A DNA stretch of 23,322 bases from a virus: the IMG/VR virus record IMGVR_UViG_3300025889_000980, positions 1 through 23,322 of that record. The stretch is one strand, 5' to 3'. Shown piece by piece: positions 2,011-19,421 of this stretch (position 1 is the first letter of the stretch; every line of letters begins with the position of its first letter). A model generated the notes under the pieces. The model searched no databases and was not told the DNA's origin. It was given only the letters and a program-made list of their open reading frames with translations. Position numbers and translations under genes: made by a program.

Positions 2011-2177
2011 CAGAGGACATGATGAAAGAAATACTTGAAGACTGGATGAGTTGGAAGTATGACATTATTGAAATGAATAATTCAGAGTGGACACAAAGGG
2101 ATGAGAGTAAGTTAGCAATGATAGAAGCTATACTTATGGAACAACTTAATATAATAAAAGCTAGGGATAGAAGATGA
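2007..2177 (+). CDS. Hypothetical helical protein, 56 aa
   Basis: ATG 2007 overlaps the previous stop (ATGA). The product is Met- and Glu-rich and predicted helical, with a basic end (KARDRR). Its stop overlaps the start of the homing endonuclease gene by 4 bases, so the two are translationally coupled. Function unknown. Confidence 0.6.
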   Translation: MTEDMMKEILEDWMSWKYDIIEMNNSEWTQRDESKLAMIEAILMEQLNIIKARDRR

Positions 2178-2545
2178 ATAACTTAAATGAAGAACTAATA
2201 TATGCAACAGCATTTATAGATGCTGAAGGACATATAGAATTTAAAACAAGAGATAAAAAAAATGGAAGAGGTAAGATATATCCATGTAAATCTATTAGAG
2301 TTGAAGTAACTAATACAGATTTTAAACCTGTAAAAGATATGATAGAAACATTTGGATGTGGTTTTCTTTCCTATCCTAAAAGAAGATATAAAAAAAATGG
2401 TGAGTTGGGTAAGCAACAAATAAAATGGGGAGCATCACATAAAGATTGTTATAAAGTTATTCAAATGATTTTACCTTTTTTAAAAACTCAACAGAGAATA
2501 GATGTAGCTAATCAAATAATAAATTATTATGAGCAAAAAAGTTAG
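2174..2545 (+). CDS. LAGLIDADG homing endonuclease, single motif (copy 1)
   Basis: The N-terminus carries a LAGLIDADG-type helix at residues 11-19 (ATAFIDAEG), followed by the beta-rich DNA-binding sheet usual in this family. Family knowledge: single-motif members of about 120-170 aa dimerise, cut a long DNA target, and spread their own gene by the repair that follows. The residue at the catalytic acidic position is Glu18 rather than the usual Asp; this is conservative, but activity is not certain. It is a free-standing gene, coupled to the previous one by ATGA and overlapping the next by 17 bases; I see no intron or intein around it. It shares layout with the product of 3471-3842 (W[GK]xSHK near residue 90 and an ILP[FY] helix), so the two are probably related. 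Confidence 0.8.
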   Translation: MNNLNEELIYATAFIDAEGHIEFKTRDKKNGRGKIYPCKSIRVEVTNTDFKPVKDMIETFGCGFLSYPKRRYKKNGELGKQQIKWGASHKDCYKVIQMILPFLKTQQRIDVANQIINYYEQKS

Positions 2546-3222: not shown

Positions 3223-3474
3223 ATGTCAGGAAGAAATTATAAATGGTTGGAGAAAGATATGTTAACACCAAGACAATTAAAGTTATTTAAATATTTAGTA
3301 GCTTATAAAAAGAAGCATGAGATAATGCCTAAATTTGATGAGATAAGAGAGTACATGAATATTAAATCAAAGAGTGGTGTTTATCAAATGCTTGGGTACA
3401 TAGAGTGGAAGGGATATATTAAAAGACATCCTGCACACGCAAGAGCAATAGAAATATTAAAGGAGGTAGCATGA
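3223..3474 (+). CDS. LexA-type winged-helix DNA-binding protein without protease domain
   Basis: Residues 13-80 match the LexA N-terminal DNA-binding domain: LTPRQ at the start (LexA has LTxRQ), a first helix LKLFKYLVAYKKKHEIMP, the helix pair FDEIREYMNIKSKSGVYQML, then a wing (KGYIKRHPAHARAIEIL). LexA itself continues for about 120 more residues with a Ser/Lys self-cleaving domain; here the protein stops, so RecA-triggered self-cleavage is not expected. It may repress an early promoter, or act as an anti-repressor or dominant-negative version of host LexA (inference). ATG 3223 is 2 bases after the previous stop; an internal ATG at 3259 has a better site (GGAG 3249-3252) and matches the start of LexA, so it may be the real start. 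The dyad near the 4076-4104 promoter is a possible target. Confidence 0.75.
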   Translation: MSGRNYKWLEKDMLTPRQLKLFKYLVAYKKKHEIMPKFDEIREYMNIKSKSGVYQMLGYIEWKGYIKRHPAHARAIEILKEVA

Positions 3475-3478
3475 GTAA
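3460..3478 (+). repeat. 19-bp direct repeat at the start of the homing endonuclease cassette
   Basis: Positions 3460-3478 match 3828-3846 at 18 of 19 bases (G/A difference at 3464 versus 3832). The unit holds the ribosome binding site, the last codons of one gene (ending Val-Ala), and ATGAGTAA, the start of the next gene. The two copies sit exactly at the two ends of the homing endonuclease gene. Confidence 0.8.
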
Positions 3479-3842
3479 GTCTGAACTTTATCAAATAGAA
3501 AAAGATGCTTTTTTAGCAGGTCTATTTGATGCTGATGGTTCTGTTTCTATTTATCAAAGCTTAAAGAAAAAATCTAATAAGGTTTATACTGTTCATGCTT
3601 GTGAAATTTCTATGACAAATGAAGAAGTTATTAATTGGATTAAAGATACTGTTGGCTTTGGTAATATTTTTTATAGAGAAGCACATGAAAAATGGTTAGG
3701 TACTAAACCTCAATGGCGATGGAAAGTATCACACAAAAAAGCTTTAGAGTTTGCTAAAATTATATTACCTTATAGTATTATAAAAAAAGATAAGTTAAAT
3801 AAAATAATAAAACATTATGAAACAAAAAAGGAAGTAGCATGA
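3471..3842 (+). CDS. LAGLIDADG homing endonuclease, single motif (copy 2)
   Basis: Residues 15-23 read LAGLFDADG, a near-perfect LAGLIDADG helix with the catalytic Asp at 22. The rest (a beta-rich middle with GFGNIFYR and WRWKVSHK, then helical ILPY and a C-terminal helix) follows the single-motif fold, and 123 aa is typical for a dimerising member. Role by family: site-specific double-strand cutting that copies the gene into genomes lacking it. ATG 3471 is coupled to the LexA-like gene by ATGA, with AGGAGG at 3461-3466. The gene is bounded by 19-bp imperfect direct repeats. Gene 2174-2545 is a likely distant paralogue; this copy keeps the canonical catalytic Asp. Confidence 0.88.
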   Translation: MSKSELYQIEKDAFLAGLFDADGSVSIYQSLKKKSNKVYTVHACEISMTNEEVINWIKDTVGFGNIFYREAHEKWLGTKPQWRWKVSHKKALEFAKIILPYSIIKKDKLNKIIKHYETKKEVA

Positions 3843-5228: not shown

Positions 5229-5510
5229 ATGACTGAAAAAGCTTTACTAACAGAATATAAATCTACAATATCTGATTTAACAAAAGAGAAACAGGAATTA
5301 AATGAGATTATTATTCAAAAGGATAGCAAGATTAAAAAGATTCTAATACAATTAGAACAGGCTAATTCTGATATTCAATCTATGGGTTCTAAGATAGGTG
5401 AACTTCAGGAAAAGCTGAACAAGAAACAAACTATTAAATTAAACATCGATAAAAAGATAGAGGAAATGCTTGAAAAAAAAGATGAACCAAGTGTTGACAA
5501 CGATGATTAA
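5229..5510 (+). CDS. Coiled-coil hypothetical protein, 93 aa
   Basis: The frame is open from an ATG at 5211, but that start would overlap GAAGGA (5206-5211). ATG 5229, 2 bases after the previous stop, gives MTEKALL and is preferred, though its spacing from GAAGGA is long. Almost the whole length is heptad-like helix (TISDLTKEKQELNEIIIQK, LEQANSDIQSM, IGELQEKLNKK), ending in an acidic tail. Probably a dimeric or trimeric coiled coil; partner unknown. Its 3' end contains the -35 box of the ssb promoter. Confidence 0.7.
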   Translation: MTEKALLTEYKSTISDLTKEKQELNEIIIQKDSKIKKILIQLEQANSDIQSMGSKIGELQEKLNKKQTIKLNIDKKIEEMLEKKDEPSVDNDD

Positions 5511-5522
5511 ATTTGATATTAA
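5494..5522 (+). promoter_or_regulatory. Extended -10 promoter for the ssDNA-binding protein gene
   Basis: TTGACA at 5494-5499, a 17-base spacer, and TATTAA at 5517-5522, with the extended -10 dinucleotide TG at 5514-5515. The expected start is near 5529, giving a leader of about 30 bases before the ATG at 5561. The -35 box is inside the last codons of the coiled-coil gene. With the terminator at 6062-6094 this makes ssb a possible single-gene transcript. Confidence 0.6.
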
Positions 5523-5560
5523 AACAATAACAATTAACAATTATAACAAAGGAAATACAT

Positions 5561-6010
5561 ATGGCAATAATTGAAGGCACAGCTTACTGGGCTTCTCTGA
5601 CACGACCAAACGAAAAGTTTGAACCTATGTGGAGAATTGATTTAGCAGTAGACGACAAGTCAGCTAATGAACTTAAAGAACAAGGTATAGCACTTGGTGA
5701 AACTACTGTAGATGAAAAGACTATTCCTAATATAGTAAGATTCAAAAGAAAAGTACAGAAAGCTAATGGTGATAAGAATACTCAACCACAATTAGTAGAT
5801 GCTTCTAAGAATCCACTAGATAAAATAGTAGGTAATGGAAGTAAAGTTAAAGTAATGTACAAACCATACGAATGGAACTTCAAAGGTAAGAAGGGAATGG
5901 GTTTAGACTTACAAGCTGTACAAGTCATTGACTTAATCGAGTATACACCTAAAGAAGATTTTGATGTTGAAAATTCTTCAGGTGGTGTTGACATCAAGGA
6001 TGATTTTTAG
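5561..6010 (+). CDS. Single-stranded DNA-binding protein, T7 gp2.5-like
   Basis: 149 aa, shorter than T7 gp2.5 (232 aa). The N-terminus (IIEGTAYWASLTRPNEKF, then MWRIDLAVDD) is typical of phage OB-fold ssDNA-binding proteins, with a conserved aromatic and positive stretch, and VRFKRKVQKANG and VKVMYKPYEWNFKGKKG give basic strands for DNA contact. The tail is acidic and ends Lys-Asp-Asp-Phe; in T7 such a tail with a terminal Phe docks on the polymerase and is swapped with the helicase tail. It coats lagging-strand template DNA and helps annealing. ATG 5561 follows AAAGGA at 5548-5553. Its own promoter and a strong terminator suggest high, separate expression. Confidence 0.82.
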   Translation: MAIIEGTAYWASLTRPNEKFEPMWRIDLAVDDKSANELKEQGIALGETTVDEKTIPNIVRFKRKVQKANGDKNTQPQLVDASKNPLDKIVGNGSKVKVMYKPYEWNFKGKKGMGLDLQAVQVIDLIEYTPKEDFDVENSSGGVDIKDDF

Positions 6011-6026
6011 TACTATCCAACTGTTG

Positions 6027-6051
6027 AAATGAAATTTACTTTTCATTTTTT
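6027..6051 (+). terminator. Weak AT-rich hairpin with T-run, first of a tandem pair
   Basis: AAATGAAA (6027-6034) pairs with TTTCATTT (6041-6048) around a 6-base loop and runs into more Ts (6049-6051). It has few G-C pairs and is probably a weak pause or RNA-stabilising hairpin just ahead of the strong terminator. Confidence 0.45.
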
Positions 6052-6061
6052 CTTACTCCGA

Positions 6062-6094
6062 GGGGGTGGCGAGAAATTGCCACTCCTTTTTTTT
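6062..6094 (+). terminator. Strong intrinsic terminator after the ssDNA-binding protein gene
   Basis: GGGGGTGGC (6062-6070) pairs with GCCACTCCT (6079-6087) through about nine pairs including two G-T, around an 8-base loop, and is followed by T at 6087-6094. It is the most GC-rich spot nearby. It separates ssb from the primase-helicase gene, which must be reached by read-through, by antitermination or from a promoter I cannot see. Confidence 0.9.
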
Positions 6095-6124
6095 GGACTC
6101 AATTAAAATTAACTAAGGGCGACA

Positions 6125-7765
6125 ATGGAAGAAATAAATAAAAAAGGTTTTGTAAAATACCACTTACCCTGTCCACTATGTTCAAGTAGTGACGCAGTAT
6201 CTGTTAACGCAGACAACTCAGCTTATTGTTTTTCATGTCAAGAATTTATAAAGGAATACGATATGGAAATACAACCAACAATACCACAAACTAAAAACGA
6301 ATATGAAGTAAAAGATTTCATGAAAGATTCTAACTATGCAGAAATTATAGATAGAAATATTTCTGAAGACACCTGTAAAAAGTTTGGTGTTACAGTTAAG
6401 ATGGATAACATGGGTAATATCATTAGTCATTATTATCCTTATCATGATACTCAAGGTGCAAAGATTGCAACTAAGACTAGGTATACTAAGCTAAAAGAAT
6501 TTAGTATACAAGGTAACACAAAAGATTCTGGCTTGTTTGGTCAACATCTTTTTTCTAAAAATAAATACTGTATTATAACTGAAGGAGAGTTGGATGCTCT
6601 ATCATCTTATCAGATGATGTTAAAGGGTAACTATCATACACCAGTAGTAAGTATTAAGAATGGAATATCTTCAGCAGTAAAAGATATTAAAAATAGTTTA
6701 GAGTGGTTAGAAAATAATTTTGATAATGTTATTATAAATTTTGATAATGACCCACAAGGTAGAGAAGGTGCAATGAAAGTTGCAGAATTATTCTCTCCAG
6801 GAAAATGTAAAGTCATGCATTTACCTGAAGGATTAAAAGATGCTTCAGATTGTTTAACTCAAAACAAAATACAAATATATAATAAAACATTTTGGGATGC
6901 TAAGAAGTTTGCACCTGATGGAATTATAAATGCTAGTACATTATTAGATGATGTACTTAAACCAGTAACAAAATCATTTGTTCAATATCCTTTTGAAGGA
7001 TTAAATAAAATTACATATGGTCTAAGACCTTCAGAGTTAGTTACATTTACAGCAGGGTCTGGACTAGGTAAGACACAAGTAATGAGAGAAGTAGTACATC
7101 ACATTATAAAATCAACTGAAGATAATATTGGTTTGTTAATGTTAGAAGAAACACCAGTCATAACTTCAAAAGGTTTGATGAGTGTTGAAGCTAATCAAAG
7201 ATTACACTTACCAGATGTTCATGTAAGTAAAGAAGAAATGACAACTTACTTTAAAGCAACAGTAGGTACTGGTAGAGTATTTATGTTTGACCATTTTGGT
7301 TCTAACTCTATTGATAATATTGTTTCAAGAGTTAGGTTCTTAGCTAAAGGTCAAGACTGTAAATACATAGTGATTGACCATATAAGTATTATTGTATCCG
7401 ACCAACAACATGGTGATGAGAGAAGAGCATTGGATGAAATTATGACTAGACTTAGAACACTTGTTCAAGAGACAGGGGTATCTATGATAGTTGTATCACA
7501 CCTTAGAAGACCTGAAGGTAAAGGTCATGAAGAGGGAGCAGCAACTTCACTATCACAATTAAGAGGTTCGGCTAGTATAGGTCAGCTAAGTGACATGGTT
7601 ATTGGGCTTGAGAGAGACGCACAGAACGATGACCCTGATATTAGGAACACCACTAGGATAAGAGTATTAAAGAATAGATTCTCTGGTATTACAGGTCCTT
7701 GTTGTGATTTAAAATATGATATAGATACTGGTAGACTTAATGAGGTAAAGTCTGATGACTTTTAA
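6125..7765 (+). CDS. DNA primase-helicase, T7 gp4-like
   Basis: 546 aa (T7 gp4 is 566). Domains in order: a zinc-binding domain with Cys16, Cys19, Cys35 and Cys38 spaced as in T7 gp4; a TOPRIM primase core with YCIITEGELDAL near residue 150 and IINFDNDPQGREGA near 205; a RecA-like ring helicase with Walker A GSGLGKT (Lys316), Walker B YIVIDHIS (Asp418), and VVSHLRRP near 458-465. It unwinds the fork 5' to 3' and makes RNA primers. The C-terminus ends Ser-Asp-Asp-Phe, like T7 gp4, and those codons overlap the start of the polymerase gene, so the two are translationally coupled. ATG 6125 follows AAGGG at 6115-6119. Gene order helicase then polymerase, with ssb upstream, mirrors a T7-type replisome. 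Confidence 0.95.
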   Translation: MEEINKKGFVKYHLPCPLCSSSDAVSVNADNSAYCFSCQEFIKEYDMEIQPTIPQTKNEYEVKDFMKDSNYAEIIDRNISEDTCKKFGVTVKMDNMGNIISHYYPYHDTQGAKIATKTRYTKLKEFSIQGNTKDSGLFGQHLFSKNKYCIITEGELDALSSYQMMLKGNYHTPVVSIKNGISSAVKDIKNSLEWLENNFDNVIINFDNDPQGREGAMKVAELFSPGKCKVMHLPEGLKDASDCLTQNKIQIYNKTFWDAKKFAPDGIINASTLLDDVLKPVTKSFVQYPFEGLNKITYGLRPSELVTFTAGSGLGKTQVMREVVHHIIKSTEDNIGLLMLEETPVITSKGLMSVEANQRLHLPDVHVSKEEMTTYFKATVGTGRVFMFDHFGSNSIDNIVSRVRFLAKGQDCKYIVIDHISIIVSDQQHGDERRALDEIMTRLRTLVQETGVSMIVVSHLRRPEGKGHEEGAATSLSQLRGSASIGQLSDMVIGLERDAQNDDPDIRNTTRIRVLKNRFSGITGPCCDLKYDIDTGRLNEVKSDDF

Positions 7766-9437
7766 TAAAGTTGTATTTGATATAGAAACAACCATGACTG
7801 CTGATAAGATATGGTGTATTGTTTGTAAACATGGCGATACTTATTATCAGTTTAAAGAGGATAGGTTACATAGGTTTGCTGAATTAATAAAGCAAACTGA
7901 AGAAGTTATAGGTCATAATATAATTGGATTTGATATACCAGTAGTCAATACTATTTTTGGTTATGATGTATTTGCTAATTGTAAAGTAACTGACACTTTA
8001 GTTTTATCTAGATTATTAAATCCTATGATAGAAGGTGGACACTCATTAAAAAATTGGGGTACTAAGTTAGGTCAAAATAAAATACATTTTGAACAGTTTG
8101 ATTTCTTCTCTGAAGATATGTTAACTTATTGTAGAAATGATGTTGAACTAACTGAAAGACTTTATAAATTTTTAATTAACAAAACAAAAGACTTTGGTAT
8201 GTCAATTGAATTGGAACATAAGGTTGCACAAATAATTCAGAAACAACATGAAAGAGGATTTAAGATTAATGTTGTTGAAGCATATGAATTACAATCTAAG
8301 TTTCAAGAAGATATGAATAACTTAACTTCTAAAGTTAGAGAAACTTTTCCTCCATTAAAAATAGAAGAAGAGTTTATACCTAAGTCTAATAACAAAGCAA
8401 GAGGTTATGTGAAGGGTGTACCTTTCACTAAAGTTAAATACAAAGAATTTAATTTAGGTTCAAGGCAACAGATTGCTGAACGATTAGTTATGCTTGGATG
8501 GAAACCAAAAAAGAAAACTGATAAAGGACATATCATTGTTGATGAGAAAGTATTATCTGAGATACATAATATTCCTGAAGCTAAATTAATAAACAGATAC
8601 TTAATGCTACAGAAAAGAATTGCTCAAGTAAATTCTTGGATAGAAGCTATTAAGGAAGATGGTAGAGTACATGGCAAGGTCATTACTAATGGCACTATAA
8701 CAGGAAGAATGAGTCACCAGTCGCCCAACATGGCTCAGATTCCTGCTGTGTACTCTCCATATGGTAAAGAATGTAGGGCATTATGGACAGTAAACAAAGG
8801 TTATAAACTAGTAGGAGTGGATGCATCTGGTCTTGAGTTAAGGATGTTAGCACACTACATGAATGATAAGGATTATATATATGAAGTCGTTAATGGAGAT
8901 ATACACACAGCAAATCAAAATGCTGCTGGTTTGGAATCAAGAGATAAGGCGAAGACTTTTATCTACGCATTTATCTATGGAGCAGGTTCAAAAAAAATCG
9001 GAAGTATCATTGGAGGTTCGGAAAGAGATGGAGAAAGAACTAAAGAAAAATTTCTTAGAGCAACACCAAGTCTTAGAAGCTTACGAGAAAAAGTGGAACG
9101 AGTGGCTCAACGAAGATGGGTCAGAGGACTCGACCAAAGAAAAATAATTATAAGACATCCTCATGCAGCATTGAATACTTTGTTGCAAGGAGCAGGTGCT
9201 ATTGTTATGAAGTATGCGTTGACAATACTAGAACAATATGTTATAAATAAACGAATCAAAGCATTTCCAGTTGTTAATGTACATGATGAATTTCAATACG
9301 AGGTTGAAGAAAGTAGAGCCGAAGAGTTTGGAAGACTAGCAGTACAATCAATTATAGATGCAGGTAAACAATTAAATGTAAGGTGTCCACTAAATGGCGA
9401 ATATAAAATCGGAAACAACTGGTCAGAAACACATTAG
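7755..9437 (+). CDS. DNA polymerase, family A, T7 gp5-like
   Basis: 560 aa with a 3'-5' exonuclease followed by a polymerase domain. Exo I is DIETT with Asp9 and Glu11, Exo II is GHNIIGFDIPVV near residue 55, Exo III is YCRNDVELTERLY near 125-135, so proofreading looks intact. Polymerase motif A is GVDASGLELRML with Asp356; motif B is RDKAKTFIYAFIYG with Arg396, Lys400 and Tyr404; motif C is VHDEF with Asp511. It is shorter than T7 gp5 (704 aa), so the thioredoxin-binding insertion of T7 is probably missing and processivity must come another way. Tyr404 is at the position of E. coli Pol I Phe762 and T7 Tyr526; Tyr there is reported for virulent phages. The start overlaps the helicase gene by 11 bases. 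A promoter-like sequence lies inside at 9219-9247. Confidence 0.96.
   Translation: MTFNKVVFDIETTMTADKIWCIVCKHGDTYYQFKEDRLHRFAELIKQTEEVIGHNIIGFDIPVVNTIFGYDVFANCKVTDTLVLSRLLNPMIEGGHSLKNWGTKLGQNKIHFEQFDFFSEDMLTYCRNDVELTERLYKFLINKTKDFGMSIELEHKVAQIIQKQHERGFKINVVEAYELQSKFQEDMNNLTSKVRETFPPLKIEEEFIPKSNNKARGYVKGVPFTKVKYKEFNLGSRQQIAERLVMLGWKPKKKTDKGHIIVDEKVLSEIHNIPEAKLINRYLMLQKRIAQVNSWIEAIKEDGRVHGKVITNGTITGRMSHQSPNMAQIPAVYSPYGKECRALWTVNKGYKLVGVDASGLELRMLAHYMNDKDYIYEVVNGDIHTANQNAAGLESRDKAKTFIYAFIYGAGSKKIGSIIGGSERDGERTKEKFLRATPSLRSLREKVERVAQRRWVRGLDQRKIIIRHPHAALNTLLQGAGAIVMKYALTILEQYVINKRIKAFPVVNVHDEFQYEVEESRAEEFGRLAVQSIIDAGKQLNVRCPLNGEYKIGNNWSETH
9219..9247 (+). promoter_or_regulatory. Candidate internal promoter inside the DNA polymerase gene
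   Basis: TTGACA at 9219-9224, a 17-base spacer, and TATAAA at 9242-9247, with extended -10 TG at 9239-9240. A start near 9254 would transcribe the exonuclease, speD and following genes separately from the polymerase. It lies in coding sequence, so the match could be chance, but it has the same layout as the ssb promoter. Confidence 0.5.
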
Positions 9438-10347
9438 TACGATAGCAACAGACATCAAGCAATTGATTTCTGATATATCTACTGGTAAACCTGCCAACAT
9501 GACAGAGGAAAACTTAAATGTTTTTCTTAATAATATTAAAGAAGCTGTTCTAGCTTGGAATACTTCTCAAGTAAAAGCAGAAAAGTATGAAGGTAAACTT
9601 AGGATGTCTTCTATTGGTAAACCTGCAAGACAACTATGGTATGATAAACATAGTCCTAAAGATAGAAAGAATGAAGACACAGGATTAAATTTAAAATTTT
9701 TATATGGTCATATCATTGAACATTTAGTTTTATATTTAGCAGAGTTAGCAGGACATACTATCAAAGACCAACAAAGAAAAGTTGAAGTGTCAGGAGTATC
9801 AGGACACATAGACAGTATCATTGATGGTGAAGTATGTGATGTTAAATCAGCATCACCTTTTAGTTTTAAAAAATTTCAATCAGGTGAGATAGTTGGTGAT
9901 GACCCTTTTGGTTATCATGCACAATTAGCAGCATATGAAGAAGGTTGTGATACAAAAGCAGGTGGCTTTCTTGTTGTTGATAAATCTTCTGGTGATATTT
10001 GTTTTTACAAACCAGATGATATGGCTAAACCAAATGTTAAATCTTTAATTAAAAATTTAAATACTGCTTTAGAACAAGACACTCCTCCAGAAAAATGTTA
10101 TGAATATAAAACAGAAAAGAATGGTAACAAAACTTTAGCTACTGGTTGTATGTTTTGTCCACACAAATGGGAATGTCATTCTGATGCTAATGGTGGTAAA
10201 GGTTTAAGAGTATTTAAATATTCTAATAAGAATGTTATGTTAGCTGAAGTTATTAAAGAACCTAATGTAGATGAAATTACAAATCAATATAAGGAACAAT
10301 TAGAAAACTATGGAAAAAGAACTGATACACAAGCACCTTCTAATTAG
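9394..10347 (+). CDS. RecB/Cas4-like PD-(D/E)XK exonuclease with a cysteine cluster
   Basis: 317 aa. The nuclease core shows GHIIEH (residues 105-110), then His138 and Asp140 (SGHIDSI), Asp149-x-Lys151 (CDVKSAS), and a QxxxY motif Gln177/Tyr181 (HAQLAAYEEG). This is the order of the RecB/AddB/Cas4 nuclease family. The C-terminus has Cys252-x2-Cys255-x5-Cys261 plus Cys235; the x2-x5 spacing is that of the AddB/Cas4 iron-sulfur cluster, although the fourth cysteine there usually comes before the nuclease core. Directly after polA it probably does the job of T7 gp6: degrading host DNA, removing primers and supporting recombination. ATG 9394 lies inside polA (44-base overlap), 10 bases after AAGG. 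The frame then runs into speD with a 38-base overlap. Confidence 0.85.
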   Translation: MANIKSETTGQKHISTIATDIKQLISDISTGKPANMTEENLNVFLNNIKEAVLAWNTSQVKAEKYEGKLRMSSIGKPARQLWYDKHSPKDRKNEDTGLNLKFLYGHIIEHLVLYLAELAGHTIKDQQRKVEVSGVSGHIDSIIDGEVCDVKSASPFSFKKFQSGEIVGDDPFGYHAQLAAYEEGCDTKAGGFLVVDKSSGDICFYKPDDMAKPNVKSLIKNLNTALEQDTPPEKCYEYKTEKNGNKTLATGCMFCPHKWECHSDANGGKGLRVFKYSNKNVMLAEVIKEPNVDEITNQYKEQLENYGKRTDTQAPSN

Positions 10348-10684
10348 AGCAGAGGTAAAGAAACCTTTAGCTACTGAAGAAGATACAGTTGCTTGGATGA
10401 AAAAATTAATTAATAAAATAGATATGAATATATTAGCAGGACCTTATTCATCTAGAGTTACTAAGAAAGGTAATAAAGGATTAAGTGGTGTTGCTATTAT
10501 AGATACTTCACACATTGGTATTCATACATGGGATGAACAACAACCTGCATTAATACAGTTAGATGTTTATTCTTGTAAAGAATTTAAGAAGACAGATGTA
10601 CTAGAATGTTTAGAAATATTTGAACCTATCATAGTAGAGTATAAATATTTTGATAGAGATACTAATTTTAAGGAATTAAAATAA
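10310..10684 (+). CDS. speD: S-adenosylmethionine decarboxylase family proenzyme (pyruvoyl enzyme)
   Basis: 124 aa, the usual length of the small bacterial class. The core is DTSHIGIHTWDE then QLDVYSC: Ser67 is the predicted cleavage residue that becomes the pyruvoyl group, His72 the processing residue and Cys89 the catalytic acid, matching Ser63, His68 and Cys83 of the Thermotoga enzyme with two residues inserted before the Cys. The family self-cleaves and decarboxylates S-adenosylmethionine to supply aminopropyl groups for spermidine. Odd points: the residue before the cleaved Ser is Thr66, where the family usually has Glu, and there is no spermidine synthase in the window. Some homologues are known to have become ornithine or arginine decarboxylases, so the substrate is open. 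It overlaps the exonuclease gene by 38 bases; AAGGA at 10291-10295 is the likely binding site. Confidence 0.88.
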   Translation: MEKELIHKHLLIRAEVKKPLATEEDTVAWMKKLINKIDMNILAGPYSSRVTKKGNKGLSGVAIIDTSHIGIHTWDEQQPALIQLDVYSCKEFKKTDVLECLEIFEPIIVEYKYFDRDTNFKELK

Positions 10685-14597: not shown

Positions 14598-17500
14598 TTA
14601 TTTATCTCCTTTTATTTTTTTAATAATTACTCCTGATGTTCCTATCTTATATTTACTAGGAATTTTTTCTACTTTAAATTTATCACCTAAAATACTTTTA
14701 ATATATTCTTCTAATTCTTTTTGACTATATCCTTTTTGAAAAGTCTTCTTATCTCCCTTACCAAATATCCACCCATCATTAAATGGTGTAGCATTCTTAG
14801 AAGCTTGGGCTGCTTTAGTAACTTCATTACCTCTTGTTGTAATAACAGCTATTCCTTTATCGCTTATTAATTGTGATATTTGTCTAACAACATTACTTCT
14901 TTCCATAGGGTCTTCAATTACATTCAATACATTAGCATTAACAACACCATCTTTAGAAGCAAATCCTTCTTTAAATATAACATCATCTGCTGTTTTATAA
15001 TCAGGTACTTTACCTTTTACTTTTATAATTTTTTCTACTGGAACAAAAGGTTCATGATTAGTTACTATTTTATTTGTAAATTCTTTTGAACCCAAACCTA
15101 AACCAGAACCAAAATCATGTACAGTTTTAACATTAGCATCATCAAATATTTTATTAACTTTTTTATATGTACCTACTGTAGTTGATATTGCTGTATCACC
15201 TCTTTTAACTCCATATTTACTAATTGCTTTTGTTGCTAATTTTGCAGCTAATCCACCTATATTAAATTTTTGTTTTGATAAACTTTTAATTGCGTTAGCT
15301 GTATTATTCATTCTTTCTATAATACCTCTTCTATCTAATGCAACAGCATTATCATATTCTTCATTTCTTAAAAATTCTTTTGCAGCTTTTTCATATTCAC
15401 CTGCATTAATTAAATCTAAAGTTAAAGGACTTCCTGATAAAGAACCTCTAAACCATGAAGATACTAAATTTTGTCTAACATCTAATGGAAATTTATCAAA
15501 GTTTTTTATATTTTTTTTTACTTGAGGAAGTCTTTCATTAATATCTTCTACTAATTGAGCATTAGCCTCAGCTTCAGTAACTGAATCTTCTAATTTATTT
15601 TCATCTCTATAACTACCATACCCACTTGTAACTTTTTCTTCTCCTTTACCTTTATAATTTTTATATCTTTCTTCACCATCAACAATAATTTTTTCACCTA
15701 AACTTTCATAACCTTTTATAATAGGCATATAATCGGCAGCTTCAGGTTTTTTCTTAGGTAATATTATTTCTTTAACTGGTGCTTGTTTTTCACTCTTCTC
15801 AGAAACTAAATCAATTTCTTGTTCTTCATTTTGTTTTAATTCAGTATTTAAACCAGACATACCTACTGTTGCAATATCACCAGTAGATAATTTAAGTGGA
15901 GTTAATTTACGACCTTTGATAGGCATATCACCTCGAACAGTTTTTGCTCCCCATAATTTACTAATCCAATTTCTCCATTCAGGAAAAGGTGCTATGTCTT
16001 TACTAAATTTTTTTAATGCTTTATCAAAATCACCTAATAAAGTTGCTTGTACAATTTCACCTGCACCTCTAGCAATTTGAAAAGCAGGAGCAAACTGATA
16101 CCAAGGTTCTCTTGAACTTGGTCCAACAGTTTTATTAATAAATAAATCAGATAAATAACCTTGTTGTCCTGATAATCTAAATGCTTCAGCAAACCATCTT
16201 TCAGTATTAGGACCAAAGTCTGTTACTACTTCTCCATACTTAGCAAACTCTCTTAGTCCTTGGATACCACCATAAACTGGTATTGCTGCTAGTACTTTTA
16301 TTAAAGTTTTTGTATTACCATTTTCGATTCGTTGTAAAATTTTATTTGTTTGTGCAGATTTTGCCATAGCCCATGACATAAACTGACCCATTAATCTTGA
16401 CCAAGGATTTTGACTTTGTGTAAATAATAATCTGTTTGATATTTGAGGAACTAATGCATCTCTGTTTGATGTTGTAATACCTGCACTATTTAATGCTTTT
16501 TTAAATCTAACATTTTTTATAGCTTCTTCAATAGAATTTGTTTTAGCCATATCTAAAGCTGTTTGAGGTTTAATATTATATCTAGATAAATCTTGTACAA
16601 CTTTTAAACCTTTACCTTTATCTAATGATACTCCATTGCTTACCATTTTAGATAAAGTTTTAGATAACCCATAAGCATCACCAGCACCTACATTATAAGC
16701 AAATCTTCTAGCAAATCCAGTTAACCATTCTAATCCTAATCCTTTAAATGCATAATTGTTAACTTTTTGTGTAACAGTTTCACCCATCCAATTAGCATTG
16801 GTAACAACATTACTACCATCAATACCTAATGGTTTAATTAATCCTTGTCTAATTTCATTTGTTATAGCTAAGTTTAATTCTTTTGCTATTCCTGTTTCAC
16901 CTTTAACAGTAAATGCTGTGTTAATTCCTCTTTGTCCTACAATAGGTAATGCTTTAAACCATGAACTAAACTGTGCTGAGTTTTGAAAAGGTTGAACTAT
17001 ATCACCTAATGATGATATTGTTACTCTACCCAACATATTTAAGTTAGATAAAGTAGAAAGAATTGCAGCACTAGACCTCCATAGACCATCCACTTGTTGA
17101 CCATATCTATCAAAGTATGCATCAATAGTATCAGCAACAAGACTACCTTCTTTAGCTGCAGCTTGATTTGCTTTTTCTACACTTAAACCTGAGTTAACAT
17201 ATTTTTGTTTTATTTGTTCAAAGAAAGGTTTTAATAATTGTCCATTCTCTCCAAACTGTCTAGTAAAAGCTATAGACCTCATAGATTTATTAACTATGTT
17301 AGTTAATATATTAGCAGCATCATTTACTAAATAATTATTTTTTTCTAATACTTCTTCTACTAATTTATAAGGACCATTTAAACTTCTTTCTTGTGAAATA
17401 TGTTCACTAATAGGAGTGTAAACAAACTCTTTACCATATTTAGTTTTAGTAGCACCTGATATTTTTCTATTACCAGTAAATATTTCTGATAATATTTCTC

Positions 17501-19421
17501 TATTAAATACAGAGTCAGTATTATTTCTATGTCCTGCAAAATAAGTTTCAGCAGCTTTCTTAGGGTCTTTATATTTTAAACTTTTAAATATACCTTCTAA
17601 TACTTTTTGGAAAGCTTCAGGGTCTCTATTTATTTTTTCCCAGTTAAATACTCTAGGAAAATAATCTTGTATTTCTGTTTTAGAAAAGAACCCTGCATCA
17701 TTATAAACTTTTTTAAATCCATCTAAGTAATCTTTTATTCCTTTAGCTAATTCTTCTACTCTTGCAGGTGTATCTTTTGTTAACTGTTTTCCTCTAACAA
17801 TAGAAACTGCAGCAGCTTGTTCAGCTTCAGTATAATTACCTTTATTAATTAAATCATATGCTTTACGAGTCCATTCTCTAGTTAATCTATCAGCATTTGA
17901 TACAACAGATTTTTGAGAAACAGATGAATCAATTGTTTCTAATAATAATTTACCTACTTGTTCTGTTGCTCCACCATAAGCTTCTAATTTAGTAGAAGAT
18001 GTAGATGCTGTTAATGCTCTAATTTGTTGTAAAGTATATTTAGTAGCTTCACTATCTATAATACCTAATATTTTATTTTTATCACCTAATGTAAATTTTT
18101 TACTAGCTTGTATGTATTTTTGTGTAGCACCCATTACAGCACCAGCAGTAAACCAATTTAATAATTTAGTATCTTCATCACCAAATAAAACACCAGCAGT
18201 TAATCCTGTTGCTCCACCTACTAAAGGTTTGACTGCTACTGATGTTAAACTTCTAACAGCCCAGTCTACTGAACTTTCTGTTGCTTTTAATTTTTCTAAT
18301 ATTAAACCATCTCTCTTAGCAACTAACTCAGCATACTTTTTAATTTTAGGTTGTTGTGCTTTATATAATTCTGCTTTAGTTTTTTCTAATGCTTTAGTAG
18401 CATCGTTTAGTTGAGTTCTAATATTTATTATTTGTTTACCAAGTGATTCCTGTTTTAACATACCAGGAACATTTGGCTTAGGTTTTTTTCTACCTTTTAA
18501 ACTTCTAATTTTAATTAATAAATTTCTTTTATCTAATAAATTTTTTTCTAATGTTTTAAATTTAGAAACTTCTTTTGATATAGGTGCTACAAAATTTGCA
18601 TTAGACCATTCAATTAAATTTTTACTAGCTGATACAACTTCTTTATCATTTGTTACTGCTCTTAAATTTTTTAATTGAGGTACAGTAATATTTTCTTTCT
18701 TAGCGATTTTATTATCTATATATTCTACAACTTCATCTACTTGTTTTTGTGTAGCTTGTGGTGCATATTTTTTAAATATTTTAGAAACAACAGGAGTTAT
18801 CGGACCTAGGGCTGCACCAAATGTACTTGCTAATCCTACTTTACCATAATCAATTTCACCTTTAGTAGCTAAATCTCTTAAAGCTACATCAGCACCAATA
18901 GTTAAACCACCCATTAAAGATGCCATTTTATAACTCTTCATAGCAGCTCTTCCCCAAGGAGTAGCATATGCTAATATATAACCAGGGTCAAGAATAAGAG
19001 TTGCTATCTCTCCTGCTTTAACAATACCATCATCATCATATTTACCTGAAGCAAATTTCCAATGTTCTTTTTCAATATCTTTTTGTCTTAATGCTTCATT
19101 TTCTAAAATATAATCTTTAAAAGATTTATCTTCATCAAATATATCTTGAACTTTAGCTTTACCTATACGATATATGTTACCAAGTATTTGTGTATTTTTA
19201 TCAAAAGCATATTCTAATTTTTCTAAATTAGATACTTTTATTTCTTCTCCTTGAGAAAAATCAATACCTTCAGTAATAGTATCTTCAACTACAGCTTCAG
19301 CTTTAACTGGCTCTGCTTGTGAAAAATCTAATTCACTTGTTACTTCTTCAGGTTGTGTGTTGGAAAGTTCTTCTGTATTGAGAGGAGTTGCCTGTTCAAA
19401 ACTTAGAGTTTCACTTGACAT
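14598..19421 (-). CDS. Giant internal virion protein with lysozyme-like and methyltransferase-like domains
   Basis: 1607 aa, ATG 19421 after AGGAGA. The N-terminus has three related short motifs (SFEQA 7-11, DFSQA 32-36, DFSQG 54-58). Residues about 100-1200 are mostly helical, with Gly/Ala-rich hydrophobic parts (for example MASLMGGLTIGADVALRDL), as in large ejected core proteins such as T7 gp16. Residues about 1230-1380 resemble phage GH24 lysozyme: Glu1239 in GYES and Thr1265 in VTSGYGSY, but the usual Asp between them is not evident, so activity is uncertain. Residues about 1385-1607 look like a class I methyltransferase: HDFGSGLGLGSKE with Asp1436 as the SAM-binding loop, then VLNVIEDPMERSNVV and GIAVITTRG. 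Likely ejected with the DNA to cross the cell wall. The methyltransferase target is unknown. Neighbours are other virion genes. Confidence 0.85.
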   Translation of the reverse strand: MSSETLSFEQATPLNTEELSNTQPEEVTSELDFSQAEPVKAEAVVEDTITEGIDFSQGEEIKVSNLEKLEYAFDKNTQILGNIYRIGKAKVQDIFDEDKSFKDYILENEALRQKDIEKEHWKFASGKYDDDGIVKAGEIATLILDPGYILAYATPWGRAAMKSYKMASLMGGLTIGADVALRDLATKGEIDYGKVGLASTFGAALGPITPVVSKIFKKYAPQATQKQVDEVVEYIDNKIAKKENITVPQLKNLRAVTNDKEVVSASKNLIEWSNANFVAPISKEVSKFKTLEKNLLDKRNLLIKIRSLKGRKKPKPNVPGMLKQESLGKQIINIRTQLNDATKALEKTKAELYKAQQPKIKKYAELVAKRDGLILEKLKATESSVDWAVRSLTSVAVKPLVGGATGLTAGVLFGDEDTKLLNWFTAGAVMGATQKYIQASKKFTLGDKNKILGIIDSEATKYTLQQIRALTASTSSTKLEAYGGATEQVGKLLLETIDSSVSQKSVVSNADRLTREWTRKAYDLINKGNYTEAEQAAAVSIVRGKQLTKDTPARVEELAKGIKDYLDGFKKVYNDAGFFSKTEIQDYFPRVFNWEKINRDPEAFQKVLEGIFKSLKYKDPKKAAETYFAGHRNNTDSVFNREILSEIFTGNRKISGATKTKYGKEFVYTPISEHISQERSLNGPYKLVEEVLEKNNYLVNDAANILTNIVNKSMRSIAFTRQFGENGQLLKPFFEQIKQKYVNSGLSVEKANQAAAKEGSLVADTIDAYFDRYGQQVDGLWRSSAAILSTLSNLNMLGRVTISSLGDIVQPFQNSAQFSSWFKALPIVGQRGINTAFTVKGETGIAKELNLAITNEIRQGLIKPLGIDGSNVVTNANWMGETVTQKVNNYAFKGLGLEWLTGFARRFAYNVGAGDAYGLSKTLSKMVSNGVSLDKGKGLKVVQDLSRYNIKPQTALDMAKTNSIEEAIKNVRFKKALNSAGITTSNRDALVPQISNRLLFTQSQNPWSRLMGQFMSWAMAKSAQTNKILQRIENGNTKTLIKVLAAIPVYGGIQGLREFAKYGEVVTDFGPNTERWFAEAFRLSGQQGYLSDLFINKTVGPSSREPWYQFAPAFQIARGAGEIVQATLLGDFDKALKKFSKDIAPFPEWRNWISKLWGAKTVRGDMPIKGRKLTPLKLSTGDIATVGMSGLNTELKQNEEQEIDLVSEKSEKQAPVKEIILPKKKPEAADYMPIIKGYESLGEKIIVDGEERYKNYKGKGEEKVTSGYGSYRDENKLEDSVTEAEANAQLVEDINERLPQVKKNIKNFDKFPLDVRQNLVSSWFRGSLSGSPLTLDLINAGEYEKAAKEFLRNEEYDNAVALDRRGIIERMNNTANAIKSLSKQKFNIGGLAAKLATKAISKYGVKRGDTAISTTVGTYKKVNKIFDDANVKTVHDFGSGLGLGSKEFTNKIVTNHEPFVPVEKIIKVKGKVPDYKTADDVIFKEGFASKDGVVNANVLNVIEDPMERSNVVRQISQLISDKGIAVITTRGNEVTKAAQASKNATPFNDGWIFGKGDKKTFQKGYSQKELEEYIKSILGDKFKVEKIPSKYKIGTSGVIIKKIKGDK

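Follow-up and report, generated by a model that had tools for sequence, protein, structure and literature searches.

Among the SpeD homologues of marine phages, gp22 of HTVC201P was purified by Li et al. in 2023 and reported to decarboxylate L-arginine, with a Km of 0.87 mM and a kcat of 0.25 s-1 (PMC9992855). The same source reports no activity of gp22 on ornithine or lysine, and no S-adenosylmethionine decarboxylase (AdoMetDC) function, spermidine not being restored in an E. coli delta-speD strain. A second marine phage homologue, BAR31446, gave an agmatine peak threefold higher. Freshwater phage proteins that the source calls 'similar to' HTVC201P (LBP, UCP01-04) prefer ornithine, one of them taking both substrates, and the SpeD of phage phiN3 is described there as a shown AdoMetDC. 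A survey of neofunctionalised SpeD proteins places HTVC201P inside its SpeDC clade, gives Gln, Thr, Phe and Tyr as diagnostic SpeDC residues, and presents a conserved Pro said to separate AdoMetDC from arginine decarboxylase (ADC) (PMC10407285, Fig. 8).

On the host side, an arginine-based putrescine route is described for Pelagibacter (PMC9992855), and the cultured SAR11 strains HTCC1062 and HTCC7211 are reported to have a functional AdoMetDC-aminopropyltransferase fusion (PMC11107197). This kind of phage enzyme was already described in 2023, and the gene examined here is a further case. The present analysis establishes the gene, its conserved residues, its fold model, its family membership and its setting in an HTVC103P-type phage.

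The speD-like gene and its phage

The window, meaning the whole stretch of DNA that was analysed, is a virus record of 23,322 bases with a GC content of 29.8%, in which no tRNA genes were found. Thirty of its 40 picked ORFs matched a 24-kb stretch of HTVC103P, largely in order, the two endonuclease-like ORFs matching the same place. Identity to HTVC103P was 88% for the ssDNA-binding protein and 100% over 53 residues for one 56-aa protein. By these matches, the window is a fragment of an HTVC103P-type pelagiphage. This group is reported to have many metagenomic members and may infect SAR11 (PMC8528129); the host of HTVC103P itself is HTCC7211. The features listed here all lie on the + strand:

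6125..7765 (+): T7-type primase-helicase, 82% identical to that of HTVC103P
7755..9437 (+): family A DNA polymerase, 84% identical to that of HTVC103P, which marks the phage type
9394..10347 (+): Cas4-domain exonuclease-like gene (PHROG 1990) upstream of speD, overlapping its start by 38 bases; order alike in HTVC103P
10310..10684 (+): speD-like gene, probable SpeDA-like pyruvoyl-dependent arginine decarboxylase, 124 aa, class 1b SpeD fold
10505..10510 (+): Thr66-Ser67 codons, predicted self-cleavage bond with the pyruvoyl group from Ser67, counted from the translation and the phmmer alignment
10523..10525 (+): His72 codon (equivalent to T. maritima His68), from translation, alignment and PMC10407285
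10532..10546 (+): codons of residues 75-79 (DEQQP), inter-strand loop, likeliest site of the two extra residues
10574..10576 (+): Cys89 codon (equivalent to T. maritima Cys83), from translation, alignment and PMC10407285
10684..10845 (+): 53-aa Cys-rich small ORF, its ATG overlapping the speD stop (TAATG)

The speD-like ORF starts with ATG at 10310 and ends with the stop codon at 10682-10684, and its 124-aa product scored 52.9 bits against Pfam AdoMet_dc (PF02675; cut-off 25). Frame, coordinates and score agree with the initial annotation of a SpeD homologue at this position. In the PHROG collection the protein matched PHROG 3125, described as S-adenosylmethionine decarboxylase. Against TIGR03330, the NCBIfam AdoMetDC equivalog, it scored 45.3 bits, below the cut-off of 75.65. 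The HTVC201P and HTVC103P proteins scored similarly (38.4 and 38.8), and a typical Glu-Ser SpeD from a Microcystis phage reached 143.9.

The counted residues read T66 S67 H68 I69 G70 I71 H72 ... C89. In the phmmer alignment, S67, H72 and C89 paired with the Ser, His and Cys of Thermotoga maritima SpeD, with a two-residue gap in the target before the Cys; roles for the T. maritima residues S63, H68 and C83 are stated in PMC10407285. The alignment and residue counts bear out the first reading of these three as the family residues, of Thr66 as the residue before the cleaved Ser, and of two extra residues before the Cys. Ser67, His72 and Cys89 were invariant across a 55-sequence alignment, and the closest relatives retained an ORF of identical length. 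Median dN/dS, calculated with our own script, was 0.31 (range 0.08-0.59) over 105 pairs from the 15 clade representatives, and 0.19 over 128 pairs inside the closest cluster, indicating purifying selection. Low dN/dS, synteny with HTVC103P, and homologues in 14 phage records and 35 viral loci together exclude a chance ORF.

An AlphaFold2 model of the protein, built from the 55 sequences, had a pLDDT of 93.6. Its best match among solved structures was T. maritima AdoMetDC 1tlu (Z 15.2, rmsd 2.1, 110 residues aligned). The fold searches returned the AdoMetDC fold alone, and are silent on substrate. In the model, the two extra residues most likely sit in the loop of residues 75-79, which joins strands 67-74 and 80-88. 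This loop is near His72 in sequence, and the insert could influence which substrate is taken.

The gene order exonuclease, speD, ORF, DUF3310 is common to the window and HTVC103P. The 53-aa ORF itself had tblastn matches in 46 of 108 viral loci (a set that includes the best 80 of 559), and no match in the HTVC103P stretch, Pfam or PHROG. By eye, it is zinc-ribbon-like, and its protein keeps 100% identity in some loci whose SpeD has only about 80% identity, L020 and L026 among them. Elsewhere in the window, two LAGLIDADG-type endonuclease ORFs lie in the early region, at 2174-2545 (+), below the PF00961 cut-off, and at 3471-3842 (+), above it. A 1607-aa probable virion protein is encoded at 14598-19421 (-), with a phage lysozyme domain (PF00959) at residues 1253-1356 and a weak PHROG virion-structural match. 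HTVC103P carries an HlyC-type lysine acyltransferase gene, at 6380-6829 of locus L037 (PF02794, 5.7e-17).

The Thr-Ser bond, the 22-residue spacing and the family tree

Relatives were collected from several sources. A first scan of IMG/VR gave 35 viral loci, and a second was taken to the best 80 of 559. The phage-record search returned 14 records, of which 11 were Pelagibacter phages, one was an uncultured marine phage and two were 735-kb uncultured phage records, whose match was more distant than the others. A scan of genome contigs gave 26 loci. A Pfam search of the 162 genomes in the order of MAG G004 (titled Pelagibacteraceae only) found PF02675 in 10, three of them already among the contig-scan loci. 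LR756501, LR756503, HTVC104P, HTVC121P, HTVC304P, HTVC048P and duplicate loci were left out of the trait counts. The collection scans selected for other short stretches of the protein (e.g. HKH..RA and QLDVY.C), rather than on Thr-Ser or spacing, and the loci from the 162-genome search were picked by Pfam only.

All 149 close relatives counted (the viral part including the best 80 of 559) had Thr before the Ser and a Ser-Cys spacing of 22: 108/108 viral loci, many of them near copies of one another, 26/26 MAG loci, 8/8 reference phages and 7/7 further genome loci. The Thr-Ser bond and two-residue insert are therefore no peculiarity of the window phage, and the motif with its 22-residue spacing offers a simple sequence tag for the family. 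The distant phage protein LR756501 has Glu-Ser and a spacing of 20, and 6 of the 7 comparison SpeDs share that spacing. For phiN3 SpeD, the automated count ended at an earlier Cys (17), and a second Cys, taken by eye as catalytic, lies at 20. The annotated SpeD start of HTVC109P gp23 (88 aa) seems too far downstream; the conserved frame has 123 aa.

The cleavage bond, at first viewed as non-standard, does not speak against an active enzyme. HTVC201P gp22 is active with the same bond, which makes Thr-Ser compatible with an active pyruvoyl enzyme, and phiN3 SpeD, a shown AdoMetDC, carries Asp-Ser.

A tree was built from 74 proteins, including seven comparison SpeDs, four of them (S-PM2, P2559S, phiYS40 and phiN3) with shown AdoMetDC activity. 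It held no SpeDC ornithine decarboxylase, and so is silent on arginine versus ornithine decarboxylase (ODC) activity. The branch separating the seven comparison SpeDs from the window protein, HTVC201P and all Thr-Ser proteins received 85/87, below the tool's 95/80 mark, in a tree with very long comparison branches and few alignment columns (tool warning). Grouping with ordinary Thr-bearing SpeDs, which the initial annotation had named as the sign of an ordinary metabolic gene, was not seen; the Thr-Ser family stood apart from the four shown AdoMetDCs with this modest support.

Within the family, clades were recovered for the window type (15 representatives, 99/95), the HTVC103P type (8, 99/100), the HTVC201P type (6, 98/97), a gammaproteobacterial group (11, 99/99) and an alphaproteobacterial-type group (9, 98/99). 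Titles in the last group include one Pelagibacteraceae, one Alphaproteobacteria and one Proteobacteria. The branching order among these clades was without support. In this tree, the window protein and that of HTVC103P fall in different clades, the window type forming one by itself, a distinction that is new here. Separate clades, and a SpeD identity to HTVC103P of 53% against 68% for the exonuclease and 82-84% for primase and polymerase, indicate that the window speD is of a different lineage from that of HTVC103P.

DNA identity between the window and locus L026 was 0.94 in the exonuclease, 0.85 in speD, and 0.96 and 0.95 in the next ORFs. Against L029, speD was again a local minimum (0.85, flanking genes 0.93-0.96). 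No clear local minimum at speD was seen against L020 (against its exonuclease: 0.87, 0.86), L022 or L088. These values give a hint that speD alleles may have been exchanged between phages.

Chromosomal relatives in marine bacteria

Members of the family also occur on the chromosomes of marine bacteria. In one group, the gene adjoins a spermidine synthase homologue, and another SpeD, class 1a-like, is encoded at a separate place in the genome; both observations are new here. This group comprises 13 loci from small-genome gammaproteobacterial MAGs (L059, L066 and L072-L082) with a conserved speD neighbourhood. The opposite-strand neighbour was a spermidine synthase homologue in 12 of the 13, an identity drawn from Pfam for one representative and, for the same 12 genomes, from PF17284 hits to the adjoining gene; the remaining locus, L081, begins near a contig end. 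The representative SpeE scored 195.5 bits, below the curated SpeE equivalog cut-off of 249.55. An arginyl-tRNA synthetase gene (identified in L077) lies two genes from the Thr-Ser gene. A separate class 1a SpeD-like protein of about 250 aa, with the motif ESHI[TS]FHTY, was found in 12 of the 13 genomes and in none of the other 13; matches to TIGR03331 had E values of 4e-14 to 5e-8, all below the cut-off of 255.8. Two SpeD homologues per genome are a sign used to find neofunctionalised copies, and speE neighbourhoods are reported for speDC genes, which encode ornithine decarboxylases (PMC10407285).

PLP-type decarboxylases were searched for in these 13 genomes, and no candidate beyond lysA matches was seen, a second PF02784 hit in G018 lying outside the check. 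PF02784 hits in the MAG set were considered as PLP ornithine or arginine decarboxylases and rejected, since all 20 of those fetched (of 24) matched lysA, with E up to 1e-20; five seen individually scored above the lysA cut-off. The check left out two hits in G002 (one a 645-aa frame near a spermidine synthase hit), one in G018 and one in G026. PF01276 gave partial, weak hits only, in 8 of 26 genomes. With the G018 hit set aside, the lack of a PLP-type candidate suggests that the Thr-Ser protein may serve these gammaproteobacterial cells as their arginine or ornithine decarboxylase. Absences in MAGs and single-cell assemblies are weak evidence, as their completeness is unstated.

An agmatine route in the MAGs was also considered as support for ADC activity. 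Of the 26 genomes, 16 had PF04371 and 8 had PF00491; the support was judged weak because all 10 PF04371 proteins scanned (of 17 places) fell below the agmatine-deiminase cut-offs, the best at 235.5 of 381.8 bits (TIGR03380) and 241.1 of 483 bits (NF010070). A carbon-nitrogen hydrolase beside the Thioglobus-type copy was rejected as AguB (56.8 of 410.25 bits); a nitrilase model gave 221.5 bits, also below its cut-off. Among the scanned neighbours of the Thioglobus-type and alphaproteobacterial copies, no polyamine gene was recognisable. A literature search combining SAR86, polyamine and arginine decarboxylase returned 0 papers.

It is quite possible, though short of probable, that the Thr-Ser/22-spacing SpeD is a marine lineage of its own. 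Its chromosomal members would decarboxylate arginine or ornithine for polyamine synthesis in small-genome ocean bacteria where no other such decarboxylase was found, in one gammaproteobacterial group beside a spermidine synthase and with a second, class 1a-like SpeD. SAR11 phages would carry and exchange versions of the gene, the window clade being a distinct version that possibly acts on another substrate than the HTVC201P enzyme. The chromosomal relatives are a possible source of the phage genes, and candidates to fill a gap in the polyamine synthesis of streamlined marine bacteria.

Substrate and role of the phage enzyme

Taken together, the data make it probable that the window protein is a pyruvoyl-dependent arginine decarboxylase of the pelagiphage SpeDA type, feeding host polyamine synthesis. 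We infer that it shares the substrate of HTVC201P gp22, that the host could use the agmatine, and that the phage would benefit. The protein would cut itself between Thr66 and Ser67, converting Ser67 to a pyruvoyl group, which with His72 and Cys89 would decarboxylate L-arginine to agmatine, rather than act on S-adenosylmethionine. During infection, agmatine would enter the agmatine-to-putrescine and homospermidine/spermidine routes of the SAR11 host, and the polyamine supply for translation and replication would be raised. The initial annotation had suggested another substrate. This agrees with gp22, which has the same Thr-Ser bond and spacing of 22 and acts on arginine, not AdoMet (PMC9992855). 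No paper on the activity of an HTVC103P-type SpeD appeared in the literature search.

Arginine is likely for the window protein rather than certain, because other HTVC201P-like phage proteins prefer ornithine. A SpeDC-like ornithine decarboxylase, or a dual ornithine/arginine enzyme, giving putrescine directly, is the less likely reading, though one to be taken seriously. The freshwater ornithine enzymes, one of them dual, are similar to HTVC201P (PMC9992855), which itself falls in the SpeDC clade (PMC10407285), and the chromosomal relatives adjoin a speE homologue. Thr is among the four diagnostic SpeDC residues (PMC10407285), and by our guess may be the one before Ser. At the guessed positions of the SpeDC Gln and Phe, the window protein has Asp65 and Thr73. 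A Q-T-S-H...H-F pattern built on these guessed positions matched 18 stretches, none of them a SpeD, and phiN3 SpeD as query returned 15 records, none recognisable as a tested SpeDC phage. Against ornithine, the two marine phage relatives reported on in PMC9992855 use arginine, and HTVC201P showed no ornithine activity.

Partner genes were sought in the DNA around each speD, with queries that each matched at least one control locus. Two SpeE queries found no spermidine synthase in the window, while control loci matched. Queries for SpeE, SpeB (partial), AguA-like and class 1a proteins had no match in the window, in any of the 108 viral loci (including the best 80 of 559) or in any of the 8 reference phage stretches. 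The statement that no spermidine synthase lies nearby is therefore true. It is weak evidence, as the synthase was absent from all viral loci (including the best 80 of 559) and reference phage stretches scanned and HTCC1062 and HTCC7211 have their own fusion. With this fusion and the arginine-based putrescine route in the host, a single phage enzyme could plug in. That PF17284 matched in 0 of the 162 genomes from G004's order was at first taken to show a host without spermidine synthase; this was dropped, since G004 is titled Pelagibacteraceae only, PF17284 may miss a fused enzyme, and HTCC1062 and HTCC7211 do have such a fusion.

A different arrangement was seen in the Microcystis phage MaAM05 (MW495066), where a four-gene cassette at 5486-8264 of locus L243 is annotated speH_2 - speH_1 - speE - speB. 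Its first SpeD passes the TIGR03330 cut-off of 75.65 (143.9 bits) and its second falls below it (65.3). MaAM05 may thus be able to make spermidine from arginine by way of agmatine. For Microcystis phage PhiMa05, SpeD is mentioned in PMC8093824; a term search found neither speE nor agmatinase there.

That this is an ordinary AdoMetDC whose cleavage bond happens to be unusual, making decarboxylated AdoMet for spermidine, seems improbable. The protein passes the Pfam cut-off and has the fold of T. maritima AdoMetDC, phiN3 SpeD is a true AdoMetDC with Asp-Ser (PMC9992855), and the aminopropyltransferase of SAR11 isolates could use the product (PMC11107197). However, the protein misses the TIGR03330 equivalog cut-off and shares the motif family of HTVC201P, for which PMC9992855 reports no such activity. 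No partner synthase accompanied speD in the 108 viral loci (including the best 80 of 559), and in two cultured SAR11 strains the fused enzyme already supplies decarboxylated AdoMet (PMC11107197). At the Pro of HTWP (position guessed), where S-PM2 and P2559S have Pro, the window protein has Asp75, but the Pro is missing as well from phiYS40, whose AdoMetDC activity is shown.

That the gene drains host arginine or AdoMet as a counter-defence, rather than serving polyamines, is more improbable still. It would fit with the absence of any queried polyamine gene beside speD in the 108 viral loci (including the best 80 of 559) or 8 reference stretches, but the kcat of 0.25 s-1 of the tested relative would make a poor drain, and the product from arginine may be usable by the host (PMC9992855). 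Nothing was found in support of the earlier idea that host S-adenosylmethionine is consumed. Least probable of all, with no observation found in its favour, is that catalysis has been lost and the gene kept for another role or left to decay, given invariant Ser67, His72 and Cys89 in 55 sequences, dN/dS of about 0.2-0.3 and the 124-aa ORF kept in the closest relatives.

The gene is named 'S-adenosylmethionine decarboxylase' in 12 of the 14 matching phage records, the remaining two being unannotated. The one purified close relative, however, catalyses another reaction (PMC9992855), and surveys of ocean viruses would be misled if they tallied the gene under spermidine synthesis. The window gene resembles a spermidine-making gene, yet belongs to a family with one member shown to convert arginine to agmatine, and its carrier is a phage of abundant ocean bacteria.

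Compared with the known systems, the window protein is most usefully set against HTVC201P gp22 (AXH71538). Both are class 1b SpeD homologues with Thr-Ser, a spacing of 22 and the block WDE..P...QLDVY.C, encoded in a SAR11 phage by a replication-block gene that follows DNA polymerase and exonuclease, with no synthase partner seen. The two proteins are only about 42-45% identical, however, and HTVC201P belongs to the Autographiviridae, its gene adjoining ribonucleotide reductase, whereas in the window, which is HTVC103P-type, the neighbour is the 53-aa Cys-rich ORF. HTVC103P gp40, annotated as S-adenosylmethionine decarboxylase, occupies the syntenic position, but is only 53% identical and falls in a separate clade. 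Bona fide class 1b AdoMetDCs (T. maritima 1tlu, phage S-PM2) share the fold and the Ser, His and Cys; they have Glu before the Ser, Pro after HTW and, in S-PM2, a spacing of 20, against Thr, Asp and 22 in the window protein. The SpeDC ornithine decarboxylases (PMC10407285) are alike in being neofunctionalised SpeD proteins, and HTVC201P lies inside their clade.
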